A stretch of 62,544 nucleotides of DNA from positions 1-62,544 of the forward strand of contig JAMOQI010000013.1 of the NCBI GenBank assembly GCA_027064095.1, read 5' to 3'. Shown piece after piece: positions 54,089 to 57,755 of this stretch (position 1 is its first letter; every line of letters starts with the position of its first letter). The notes under the pieces are model-generated. The model worked only from the letters and a program-made list of their open reading frames with translations. It did not search any database and was not told where the DNA came from. A program made the position numbers and the translations under genes. Source of the stretch: Bacteroidales bacterium (lineage in GTDB: Bacteria > Bacteroidota > Bacteroidia > Bacteroidales > UBA1556).

Positions 54089-54793
54089 TTATACTAACTG
54101 CCAATTAAAATTACAACTCAGCTTCTCCAATACTATCTTTTTAACATCTTCCATATCAAGTTCTTTACCAAGCTCTTTACTTAAAGAAGTTACATCTTTA
54201 TCAGTAAAACCACAAGGATTGATATAAGAAAAATAATCCAGATTAGTGTTAACATTAAAAGCAAAGCCATGCATTGTTATATATCTACTCGCTTTAACCC
54301 CAATAGCACAAATTTTTCTTGCTTTACCGGGAATATTCGCATCTAGCCAAACACCTGTTGCTCCTGCCAACCTTTCACCAATTAAACCAAATTCTGCAAT
54401 AGTTTGAATTATGCTTTCCTCTAAAGTTTCAATATATGTTCTTATACCCAAACTAAAAACTTCTAAATCGATAATAGGATATACAACTATCTGACCTGGT
54501 CCATGGTATGTAATATCTCCACCACGATCTATTTTATAAAATTTTGCATTCTTAGCTTGCAATTGTATACTATCAATAAGAAGATTCTGCTCCACACCAC
54601 TTTTCCCAAGAGTATAAACATGATTATGCTCACAGAATAGAAGGTTATATTCTCTATCATCAGGAGTGTTATCTTTCCTATCTTGAAAAGACAGCTTTTC
54701 TCTCATCATAATTTTAAAAATTTTTTCCTGATAATCCCAAGCTTTTTGGTAATCAATCAAACCTAAATCCTGAAATTTTACTTTAGCTTTCAT
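54089..54793 (-). CDS. lipB: octanoyl-[acyl carrier protein]:protein octanoyltransferase
   Basis: LipB transfers octanoate from ACP to lipoyl domains, giving the substrate of LipA. The 234-residue protein has RGGDITYHGPGQ at 90-101, KICAIGVKASRYITMHGFAFN near 160-180 with the catalytic Lys, and the catalytic Cys at 194 (NPCGF). Together with lipA it makes a complete endogenous lipoylation pathway. A promoter box lies 17 bp upstream. Confidence 0.96.
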   Translation of the reverse strand: MKAKVKFQDLGLIDYQKAWDYQEKIFKIMMREKLSFQDRKDNTPDDREYNLLFCEHNHVYTLGKSGVEQNLLIDSIQLQAKNAKFYKIDRGGDITYHGPGQIVVYPIIDLEVFSLGIRTYIETLEESIIQTIAEFGLIGERLAGATGVWLDANIPGKARKICAIGVKASRYITMHGFAFNVNTNLDYFSYINPCGFTDKDVTSLSKELGKELDMEDVKKIVLEKLSCNFNWQLV

Positions 54794-54957: not shown

Positions 54958-54985
54958 TTGGATGAACAAATGTTCATTATTTTTG
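54958..54985 (+). promoter_or_regulatory. promoter with overlapping inverted-repeat operator
   Basis: TTG (54958-54960) and TATTTTTG (54978-54985) form a -33/-7 pair 17 bp apart. Between them, TGAACA (54963-54968) and TGTTCA (54971-54976) form a perfect 6-bp inverted repeat with a 2-bp spacer. Its place inside the promoter fits a repressor operator, plausibly for the DUF134 protein encoded next. It is not a recognised motif for a named regulator. Confidence 0.55.
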
Positions 54986-55005: not shown

Positions 55006-55584
55006 ATGGCAAGACCAGTAAGACACCGACGAATGCAACGTCCTCCAATTATTAAAGGGTTTAAACCATATGGAGGAAAAGGACACACCAAAGAAACGGT
55101 TAAACTATTGATGGAAGAGTATGAATCCATACGCTTGCTTGATTTTGAAATGCATACTCAAGTTGAAGGAGCAAAAATAATGAATGTCTCCAGACCAACT
55201 TTCACAAGAATTTACGAATCTGCTCGTAAAAAAATAGCAATGGCTATGGTACTTTCCATGCAATTGGAAATTGAAGGCGGTAATGTTTTACTTGAGGGAA
55301 ACTGGTTTTTATGTAAATCTTGCAATGCAGTCTTTGAATTAAGTACTGAAGAAGATATTAAAGATATTAGTTGTCCACATTGCAGTTCTTTGGAATTTGA
55401 GAACATTAACGAAAATATCAGAACATATAAAAAACCAAGATTTAACTACCATCAGACAGAAATATCGAGCGAAGAAGGCTATTGTATTTGTACAAAATGC
55501 GGATTAAAAGTATCACATAAAAGAGGTACGCCATGTAGAAAAATGAATTGTCCAAAATGTGGAATAAACTTATGTAGAGAATAA
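55006..55584 (+). CDS. DUF134 family DNA-binding protein with zinc-ribbon tail
   Basis: The protein has 192 residues from the ATG at 55006. A longer frame begins with a TTG at 54958, but that codon is the -33 box, so it is rejected. The DUF134 start MARPVRHRRMQ is followed by a sigma-70 region-4-like helix-turn-helix (about 35-76, RLLDFEMHTQVEGAKIMNVSRPTFTR). The C-terminal half carries two Cys-x2-Cys pairs in one zinc-ribbon-like unit (C103/C106 and C123/C126) and a second set (C162/C165, C182/C185). The metal-binding half is longer than in a minimal DUF134 protein. It leads an operon with NifX-like and MinD-like genes and probably regulates it. Confidence 0.85.
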   Translation: MARPVRHRRMQRPPIIKGFKPYGGKGHTKETVKLLMEEYESIRLLDFEMHTQVEGAKIMNVSRPTFTRIYESARKKIAMAMVLSMQLEIEGGNVLLEGNWFLCKSCNAVFELSTEEDIKDISCPHCSSLEFENINENIRTYKKPRFNYHQTEISSEEGYCICTKCGLKVSHKRGTPCRKMNCPKCGINLCRE

Positions 55585-55634: not shown

Positions 55635-55982
55635 ATGACAAAGAAAATAGCAATTCCAATGGCAGGAGGCAAATTAAGTTTACACTTCGGCCACTGTGAA
55701 CAATTTGCAGTAATAGAAATAGAAAATGGTGAGGTTGTAAAAGAATCATTAGTAAACCCACCGGAGCACATTACCGGCTCTTATCCTAACTTTCTTGCAC
55801 AAAAAGGAGTTCATGAGGTATTAGTAGGAGGCATTGGACAAAAAGCAATTGAGATTTTCAATGCAAACAATATAAAAGTACATATGGGAGCTCAGGCAAA
55901 GTCAATGTCTGAATTAATTGATGATTACAATAACAACAGGCTAATAACTGGCATGAACAATTGCGATGGTGGCTGCGAATAA
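55635..55982 (+). CDS. NifX/NifB-domain (dinitrogenase iron-molybdenum cofactor family) protein, ORP-like
   Basis: The 115-residue protein has the Nif cofactor-domain fold: KKIAIPMAGGKLSLHFGHCEQFAVIEI (about 3-29), VLVGGIGQKAIEIFNANNI (about 62-80) and ELIDDYNNNRLITG (about 92-105). The C-terminal tail NNCDGGCE holds two Cys. This family includes NifX, NafY, MTH1175 and the orange protein (ORP) of Desulfovibrio, which binds a Mo-Cu-sulfide cluster. Whether this protein binds a metal cluster is unknown. No nitrogenase genes are present. It is 50 bp after the DUF134 gene. Confidence 0.85.
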   Translation: MTKKIAIPMAGGKLSLHFGHCEQFAVIEIENGEVVKESLVNPPEHITGSYPNFLAQKGVHEVLVGGIGQKAIEIFNANNIKVHMGAQAKSMSELIDDYNNNRLITGMNNCDGGCE

Positions 55983-55995
55983 AATTTCTTAACAG

Positions 55996-56892
55996 ATGAA
56001 AATAGCCATTGCAAGTGCTAAAGGAGGAACCGGAAAAACAACAATAGCAACAAACTTATTTGAAGCACTGCGTTTAGAAGGAAATTTTACTGTGGATTTT
56101 TTTGATACTAATGTAGGTGAGCCTGACGCTCACCTATTTTTAGATAATATTTACACCGAACAAACTAATAAGGAAGTTGTCAATATCAAAATTCCCCTTT
56201 TTGACAAAGAGAAATGTACATATTGTGGCAAATGCCTTCATTATTGTGAGTATGACGCCATAGTAATGAATAAAGAAGATAGAAATATCTACTTAATAGA
56301 TAATAAATGTACTTCTTGTGGTGCTTGTATTTATGTATGTAATGATAATGCAATTACAGAAATTGACAAAGAAATAGGAATTATAAATATTAGAGAAAAC
56401 AAATCATCTGATAATCAAGGATCAAGATTTATTGACGGTTATCTTAATATTGGGCACCCTTTTGTATCACCCATAGTGCAATCTATGAAGACTAAACTTA
56501 TAACTGGGCAAATTAGTATAATCGATACAGCTCCTGGAACATCTCGTGCTGTGGTAGAGGCACTCTATGATGTAGATTATATTGTATTGGTAGCAGAATC
56601 TTCAGCATTTGGATTGCATGATTTACAATTGATGGTAAAAATGCTTAATGAATTACGAAAAGGATTTGGAGTAGTAATAAACCGATATCATGGAGAGCAT
56701 AATATTGTCCAAGAATATTTAGAAAAAGCACAAATACCTTTGCTCATGGAGATTCCTTTTAAAATGGAGTATGCCAGAATTTATTCTGAATCGGAATTAC
56801 TAGTTAATAACAATGATGATATGCGAAAGAAATTCTTAGAACTCTTCGAGAAAATCAAATCAGAATATATGCTTAAAGCAATGTATCGATGA
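55996..56892 (+). CDS. MinD/Mrp-type ATPase with two 4Fe-4S ferredoxin motifs, copy 1
   Basis: The 298-residue protein starts with a deviant Walker A loop KGGTGKTT (residues 9-16), with the extra signature Lys at 9, like MinD, NifH and Mrp. A ferredoxin domain is inserted (about 70-125) with C74, C77, C80, C84 and C105, C108, C111, C115, two C-x2-C-x2-C-x3-C motifs able to hold two 4Fe-4S clusters. The ATPase resumes with IIDTAPG (about 175-181). It resembles the paired MinD-ferredoxin proteins of the ORP locus. It begins 13 bp after the NifX-like gene and overlaps copy 2 by 4 bp. Confidence 0.9.
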   Translation: MKIAIASAKGGTGKTTIATNLFEALRLEGNFTVDFFDTNVGEPDAHLFLDNIYTEQTNKEVVNIKIPLFDKEKCTYCGKCLHYCEYDAIVMNKEDRNIYLIDNKCTSCGACIYVCNDNAITEIDKEIGIINIRENKSSDNQGSRFIDGYLNIGHPFVSPIVQSMKTKLITGQISIIDTAPGTSRAVVEALYDVDYIVLVAESSAFGLHDLQLMVKMLNELRKGFGVVINRYHGEHNIVQEYLEKAQIPLLMEIPFKMEYARIYSESELLVNNNDDMRKKFLELFEKIKSEYMLKAMYR

Positions 56893-57755
56893 AGCAAATA
56901 GCAATTATAAGTGGAAAAGGTGGTACCGGCAAAACCAGTATTACATCTGCATTCGCCTCATTGGCAAAGAATTCTATTTATGCCGATTGCGATGTTAACG
57001 CATCTGATTTGCATATTATCATGCGCCCTAAAGTAAAAGAAAGTTTCGTATTTTCATTTAATCAAAAAGTAAAAATAAACCAGCAAGAATGTATTAAATG
57101 TAGTATTTGTTTTAATGTATGCAGATTTAATGCTGTTGACAGAATTAGAAACAATTTTTATGTCAGAGAATTTTCTTGTACAGGTTGCGATTTATGTCGG
57201 AAGGCTTGCCCGGTAATGGCAATAGAAAAAATAGACAATAAAGCTGGAGAATATTTCATCTCCGATACCAGATTTGGACAATTAGTGCACTCACGATTAA
57301 ATGTTGGAGAAGATTATAGTGATAGATTAATTGATGATGTTAAGAGCTATGCTTGTAATATTGCCGAGGAGAAAAAATTAGACAATTTAATAATTGATGG
57401 ACCTCCGGGAATTGGTTGTACTACTATCTCAACTATTAATGGTATTGACTTAGCCGTTCTCATTACCAACTCATCAAAAAGCAGCCTCCACGACTTAAAA
57501 AGGAGTTTAGAGTTACTTAAAACGCATAATATAAAAGCATCAGTAATAATCAATAAGAGTAATTTTAATTGCAATATTACTAAAGAAATAGAAGAATATT
57601 GTTTAGAAAACGGAATTTCTTTTCTCGGTAAAATACCTTATGACAGAAACTTTACTTACGGCATGCTCGAACAAAAAAGTATTATTGAATATGCTCCTTT
57701 TTCGGCTACTTCTGATATTATCAGGAAAATCTGGGAGAAAATATTGAAATTATAA
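56889..57755 (+). CDS. MinD/Mrp-type ATPase with two 4Fe-4S ferredoxin motifs, copy 2
   Basis: The 288-residue paralogue of the preceding gene has Walker A GKGGTGKTS (9-17) and C68, C71, C74, C78 and C97, C100, C103, C107. The switch/Walker B region is LIIDGPPGIGC (about 166-176), with one more Cys (C176) just after the loop. It starts at the ATGA overlap with copy 1. The two proteins probably form a heteromer that uses ATP and iron-sulfur clusters, possibly to load or position the NifX-like protein. That is inference from the ORP system; activity is unknown. Confidence 0.9.
   Translation: MKQIAIISGKGGTGKTSITSAFASLAKNSIYADCDVNASDLHIIMRPKVKESFVFSFNQKVKINQQECIKCSICFNVCRFNAVDRIRNNFYVREFSCTGCDLCRKACPVMAIEKIDNKAGEYFISDTRFGQLVHSRLNVGEDYSDRLIDDVKSYACNIAEEKKLDNLIIDGPPGIGCTTISTINGIDLAVLITNSSKSSLHDLKRSLELLKTHNIKASVIINKSNFNCNITKEIEEYCLENGISFLGKIPYDRNFTYGMLEQKSIIEYAPFSATSDIIRKIWEKILKL

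Follow-up and report, generated by a model that had tools for sequence, protein, structure and literature searches.

The palindrome TGAACA-AA-TGTTCA (TGAACAAATGTTCA) located upstream of the DUF134 gene in the Bacteroidales bacterium assembly GCA_027064095.1 is most likely (with a probability that we put at about 0.85) the operator of the DUF134 protein, which would bind it as a dimer, repress its own operon and three additional promoters, and be relieved by a signal. The site, its position, its conservation and the associated gene set are read directly from sequence. The comparisons described below strongly implicate DUF134 as the protein that binds the palindrome, make a moderate to strong case for a dimer and for repression rather than activation, and weakly hint at metal or iron-sulfur cluster status as the inducing signal.

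The palindrome and the DUF134 operon

The window, that is, the entire stretch of 62,544 nucleotides that was analyzed (contig JAMOQI010000013.1), contains the following features around the palindrome:

54089-54793, minus strand: lipoyl ligase A/B family gene (lipB-like), on the strand opposite to the operon (profile)
54958-54960, plus strand: TTG, earlier called the -33 box; doubtful, 17 bp from the -7 box compared to 20 bp in relatives
54963-54976, no strand: putative operator, 14-bp palindrome (16 bp with the flanking A/T pair, 54962-54977), conserved upstream of DUF134 genes
54978-54985, plus strand: -7 box TATTTTTG (Bacteroidota TAnnTTTG), read from the window sequence; 1-bp gap shared by 38 of 40 promoters
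55006-55584, plus strand: DUF134 (UPF0251) gene, 192 aa, N-terminal helix-turn-helix (HTH) and C-terminal cysteine-rich stretches (profile match; start ATG 55006)
55111-55251, plus strand: HTH, residues 36-82 (structure model and profile)
55204-55206 and 55207-55209, plus strand: recognition-helix residues T67 and R68, which covary with operator letters
55635-55982, plus strand: Nitro_FeMo-Co (NifX/NifB-like) protein, 115 aa, second gene of the operon (profile)
55996-56892, plus strand: Mrp/NBP35-like P-loop ATPase with a 4Fe-4S insert (profile)
56889-57755, plus strand: second Mrp/NBP35-like P-loop ATPase with a 4Fe-4S insert (profile)

The perfect inverted repeat is present exactly as the original prediction described it; it extends by one A/T pair to a 16-bp palindrome (ATGAACA-AA-TGTTCAT), and 29 bp separate the 14-bp repeat from the DUF134 start codon. 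The exact TGAACANNTGTTCA matches the window only at this place and the whole assembly (2.13 Mb) at two places. A palindrome of 14 bp carries little weight on its own, and AT-rich DNA readily gives rise to such repeats; it is the position and the conservation that make this one more than chance. Given that the palindrome lies upstream of the expected transcription start and keeps a fixed distance to the -7 or -10 box, and is conserved across phyla, a chance repeat or a part of a transcript structure is effectively ruled out.

The DUF134 assignment is secure, with a PF02001 match of 64.9 bits against a curated cut-off of 27 (66.5 bits in the genome search). The start at 55006 was chosen because relatives share the MxRP beginning of the protein, and a TTG-started frame from 54958 was rejected as a mechanical extension. 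No Pfam match to a SorC-type effector-binding domain was detected in the C-terminal part of the 192-aa protein, which is cysteine-rich. The last 33 residues (window positions 55483-55581) are 52% identical to a stretch of a small zinc-ribbon-like protein of the putative regulon described below (L072:827-1111, minus strand). In two same-genus relatives that were tested (L058 and L044), DUF134 is fused to the Nitro_FeMo-Co domain.

The combination of a Nitro_FeMo-Co protein with an Mrp-type ATPase, which characterizes the orange protein (ORP) type of gene cluster, is found in the window, where both Mrp-like ATPases carry ferredoxin motifs and the second and fourth products of the operon match NCBIfam MrpORP below the cut-off. 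A similar set, in which Mrp-type ATPases with ferredoxin motifs accompany a Nitro_FeMo-Co protein, is described for the ORP cluster of Desulfovibrio vulgaris and for MrpORP in the available part of PMC6345978. The regulation appears to be different: according to the accessible portion of PMC3897727, the D. vulgaris ORP operons depend on sigma-54 and the enhancer-binding protein DVU2106 together with IHF, whereas the window promoter is of the -7 (housekeeping) type and contains a putative DUF134 site.

Geometry of the site within the promoter

The consensus of the -7 box in Bacteroidota is TAnnTTTG. The window box TATTTTTG fits this consensus, directly abuts the 16-bp palindrome and is separated by one base from the 14-bp palindrome, the same distance from the operator end as in 38 of the 40 Bacteroidota promoters compared. 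Thus, in the earlier description of the repeat as lying between a -33 and a -7 box, the -7 box is sound. The -33 box is doubtful because the window TTG is located 17 bp from the -7 box, a distance found in only 2 of the 40 promoters compared to 19 of 40 with 20 bp between the end of TTG and TAnnTTTG, and the window reads ATA at the 20-bp place.

Outside Bacteroidota, the -10 hexamer starts at base 13 of the operator and has at least four letters of TATAAT in 60 of 64 promoters; a TTGACA-like hexamer at 17-bp spacing is present in 38 of the 64, and in 36 the operator is embedded in a TTGACA-N17-TATAAT promoter with both hexamers recognizable. The palindrome thus overlaps the promoter of the gene for its presumed regulator, as in autoregulatory repressors, and a dimer bound here would cover both the spacer and some of the -10 box in a promoter that is otherwise standard, an arrangement that favors repression.

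Binding between the promoter boxes is known from activators of the MerR type as well, and DUF134 could, by analogy, act as an activator or switch between the two modes depending on its ligand state. The 20-bp distance in 19 of the 40 Bacteroidota promoters and the possibility that several genes of the set are needed only in the presence of the signal are compatible with such a mode of action. However, the promoters outside Bacteroidota have the standard 17-bp spacing and good matches to TTGACA and TATAAT (36 of 64), so that they would need no distortion, and their -10 box is overlapped by the operator; in view of the 17-bp spacers, MerR-like activation is retained as an unlikely alternative to repression.

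Several promoters contain additional operator-like sites. In seven loci (L158, L159, L168, L176, L178, L047 and L040), a second copy of the operator lies 31-33 bp downstream of the first and covers the DUF134 start codon, with the ATG included in its core GCATATGC. In six others (L003, L039, L045, L054, L055 and L057), a second operator-like site is located exactly 26 bp downstream, beyond the -7 box; there is none at this distance in the window promoter.

Conservation of the site upstream of DUF134 genes

The original prediction proposed a search for the repeat upstream of the DUF134 genes of related species, and the repeat was found there widely, outside Bacteroidota as well. Among 99 genomes of the genus and order, 58 encode PF02001 (70 of the 72 PF02001 places were read), and in most of the DUF134 upstream regions, a palindrome directly precedes a -7 box. 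The composite of site and -7 box (TGAACNNNNGTTCANTANNTTTG) occurs at 49 places in 36 of the 99 genomes, with no matches for the reversed-pattern control, and for 32 of the 49, a DUF134 domain is encoded on the same strand no more than 450 nt downstream. The composite is present in 35 of the 58 genomes with DUF134 compared to 1 of the 41 without it (Fisher p = 4e-10), the single exception being G020. Some of the 23 DUF134 genomes that lack the exact composite do so because the arms of their sites differ. Variant arms also accompany particular recognition-helix residues: the 99 genomes contain TGCACATATGTGCA with a -7 box at two places, each of them at a DUF134 gene that encodes Ser67, and TGAGANTATTCTCA is found at 19 loci, 4 of them with a -7 box and all 4 of these before DUF134 genes with Ala67. 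No palindrome was identified upstream of one same-genus DUF134 gene (G006:C7, L065).

A scan with the short-type alignment yielded 80 named DUF134 loci, and many of their upstream regions carry TGRGCATATGCYYA or TTRGCATATGCYAA. Of 161 DUF134 upstream regions, 105 contain a generic 14-bp palindrome with a score of at least 9 of 11; the corresponding number for dinucleotide shuffles is 11.75. Under a wider site rule, a palindrome is found at the DUF134 promoter for 135 of 160 proteins from many phyla, a count in which a few matches, L183 and L185 among them, are visibly due to chance. In 23 further genomes, which were picked for the presence of a DUF134 locus, TGRGCATATGCYYA is present in 21 (with one match for the reversed control), and DUF134 is encoded just 3' of the site at all 21 fetched loci; two extra TGRGCATATGCYYA places precede a Nitro_FeMo-Co gene (G356:C65) and a second DUF134 gene (G352:C52).

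No convincing site was detected for the Chlorobi-like DUF134 subtype, which accounts for 13 of the 14 parsed phylum loci (16 of 30 were not parsable); no convincing TG..CA palindrome was found upstream of L211-L237 (family f105, from the phylum search), with an N-terminus resembling MxxRVGRPTQCRSIQDLPK. The operator of the f105 subtype, if any, would differ from the TG..CA palindrome.

DUF134 is also encoded on plasmids of Enterobacterales, Aeromonas, Salinivibrio and Clostridia, where the DUF134-NifB/NifX pair is mostly kept and several DUF134 promoters contain one or two sites with a CATATG core. The Peptoclostridium gene order DUF134, NifX, ATPase, ATPase, MrpORP corresponds to that of the window. 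Several of the plasmids from Enterobacterales and Aeromonas with such pairs (L284, L287, L290-L292 and L294) are typed as conjugative, and some of these pairs are located near a gene for a SLAC1-type channel or a PaaI-type thioesterase.

Recognition-helix residues track the letters of the half-site

To identify the protein that reads the palindrome, we compared the DUF134 sequences with the letters of their sites. Residue 67 ranks first among 95 alignment columns by mutual information with position 4 of the half-site (0.64; the next column has 0.50): Thr or Ser at this position is accompanied by A in 99 of 104 half-sites, and Gly or Ala by G in 143 of 166. Arg68 is accompanied by G (160) or A (41) at position 2 in 204 half-sites, and other residues by T in 30 of 34, when the outer pairs are disregarded in the site rule and 53 proteins without a CATATG-core site are left out; most of the A letters paired with Arg68 belong to right arms with the sequence TTA, beside or within the -10 box.

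Counted by rows, residue 67 fits position 4 in 115 of 117 cases after 18 ambiguous rows were dropped, and residue 68 fits position 2 in 117 of 119, the two exceptions (L061 and L189) both having Lys68. On trees built without the tested columns, these associations correspond to four changes with two supported pairs for residue 67 and five changes with two supported pairs for residue 68, and neither sign test is significant. Because the tree-based test falls short of significance, we regard the covariation as suggestive rather than as proof on its own, and common ancestry could in part account for it. What lifts the case for DUF134 as the reader above mere ancestry is the DeoR contact described below, together with the sites of paralogs: where one genome encodes two DUF134 proteins that differ in helix type (G052, G017, G091 and G089), each gene is preceded by a different operator that matches its own helix. 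Together, the covariation and the own-type sites of the paralogs suggest that the site is read by the DUF134 protein itself, likely by means of a two-residue recognition code in which residue 67 goes with base 4 and Arg68 with base 2 of the half-site.

These observations bear also on the possibility that another host regulator binds the palindrome and DUF134 is simply the first gene of its regulon. The 17 of 49 composite sites that lie at promoters without DUF134, and G020, which has the site without a DUF134 match, would fit this explanation, but the site tracks the presence of DUF134 and crosses many phyla along with it, its letters follow residues 67 and 68 of the recognition helix, and paralog sites within one genome differ in the direction of their own helices; accordingly, we consider a different regulator improbable.

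Relationship of the DUF134 HTH to DeoR

The profile search identified a single relative with a solved structure, Bacillus subtilis DeoR, a repressor of the SorC/DeoR family (PDB 7bhy, 8r7y), with an E-value of 7.5e-5 over 38 aligned residues. Within this alignment, DUF134 displays a DeoR-type HTH with an SRPT.SR-like recognition helix, NISRPTVSRLL of DeoR corresponding to NVSRPTFTRIY of DUF134. In the solved structure, as given in the available part of PMC11229326, Arg39 of DeoR contacts T14 and G4 of ATTGAACAAAATTTCAAT (ATTGAAC). Arg39 is probably the counterpart of Arg68 in DUF134, as suggested by the alignment and by its spacing to Arg34, and DeoR G4 corresponds to position 2 of the DUF134 half-site. 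The same portion of that paper gives TTGAACA as one half of the DeoR operator and ACATATGTTCAA as the right half, the latter being almost one arm plus the core of the DUF134 site. The two proteins differ in architecture: DeoR possesses an effector-binding domain and binds a 39-bp operator as a tetramer (PMC11229326, in the part available), whereas DUF134 contains cysteine-rich stretches or a Nitro_FeMo-Co domain and has a single compact 14-bp palindrome in most promoters.

In the structure model of the window protein, the HTH comprises residues 36-82, a block with pLDDT above 90, and superimposes on DeoR at 0.7 A over 40 residues, with a Foldseek E-value of 0.14 that is not significant. A Foldseek search with the whole DUF134 model produced no significant match either, and it is therefore the sequence profile that links DUF134 to DeoR. 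The small HTH arrangement of the model recurs in sigma factor region 4 and similar HTH folds; comparison with sigma region 4 domains gave middling VIA-align Z values of 6-7.5, which may reflect this common arrangement alone, and Pfam Sigma70_r4 weakly matches one relative. Unlike sigma factors, DUF134 has no other sigma domains that we could see, and its HTH seems to be used as a stand-alone reader of a palindrome.

The putative regulon and a model of the switch

The genome that contains the window has six TGAACNNNNGTTCA places (two for the reversed control), four of which are followed by a -7 box. One of the four precedes the window DUF134 operon, another the genes for DUF5320 (PF17253) and a zinc-ribbon-like protein, and a third the genes for a second pair of Mrp-like ATPases; the last lies about 300 bp before a radical SAM gene. 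Together they form a putative small regulon that would encompass the DUF134 operon, Mrp-type ATPases, DUF5320 and the radical SAM protein. The stretch of about 300 bp before the radical SAM gene may contain a decayed small gene; translation of one frame between the fourth of these operators (C4) and this gene (L120 5545-5735, minus strand) gave no open frame. Autoregulation, which the original prediction proposed as the simplest reading, gains support, at the level of sequence comparison, from the presence of the site at DUF134 promoters across relatives, with the extension that three more promoters of the same genome would be controlled.

Among the 17 composites located away from DUF134 in the 99 genomes, which include the three extra sites of this genome, 13 lead genes of the regulon set as judged by reading of the translations. 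The site in G033 leads an aminotransferase-like gene, with the regulon set 1.9 kb further on. Three sites have no gene of the set nearby: one at a contig end (G036), one before an oxidoreductase-like gene (G001:C240) and one with no gene listed before 2.4 kb (G006:C22).

Under the proposed mechanism, each recognition helix of the DUF134 dimer (SRPTFTRIY, residues 62-70) would enter one half-site TGAAC, and the dimer bound to the promoter spacer beside the -7 box would shut out RNA polymerase. The genes for DUF134, the Nitro_FeMo-Co protein and the two Mrp-like ATPases would thus be repressed and, in this genome, so would the three other promoters of the same gene set. Repression would be relieved by a signal tied to whatever the products of the operon handle, probably metal or iron-sulfur cluster status, with either the C-terminal cysteine-rich region or the Nitro_FeMo-Co protein, which is fused to DUF134 in some relatives, as the candidate sensor.

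Implications

A palindrome-binding autoregulatory HTH protein is a known kind of system; the operator and the targets of DUF134 appear to be new, judging from the papers searched, in which no description of this operator was found. An iron-stimulon paper (PMC10434189) was considered as a source on DUF134 and rejected, since the single occurrence in it is DUF1349.

More tentatively, and with somewhat less than even confidence, DUF134 could be viewed as an ancient, mobile family of cluster-sensing repressors that travel across phyla and plasmids with their own spacer operator and the code linking residue 67 to base 4 and Arg68 to base 2, and serve as a dedicated switch for Mrp/ORP-type handling of iron-sulfur or molybdenum clusters, with sensing via a zinc ribbon or a fused Nitro_FeMo-Co domain. 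No function has been assigned to DUF134, a family that is widespread in anaerobes and occurs on enterobacterial plasmids as well; a coherent gene set together with a defined operator and a likely two-residue code would make it a testable regulator. The same site before DUF134 relatives in many bacterial groups points to a widespread switch of iron-sulfur cluster genes, and the inducing signal of this switch should reveal the cluster or metal that is handled, providing a handle on the role of the Mrp/ORP proteins.
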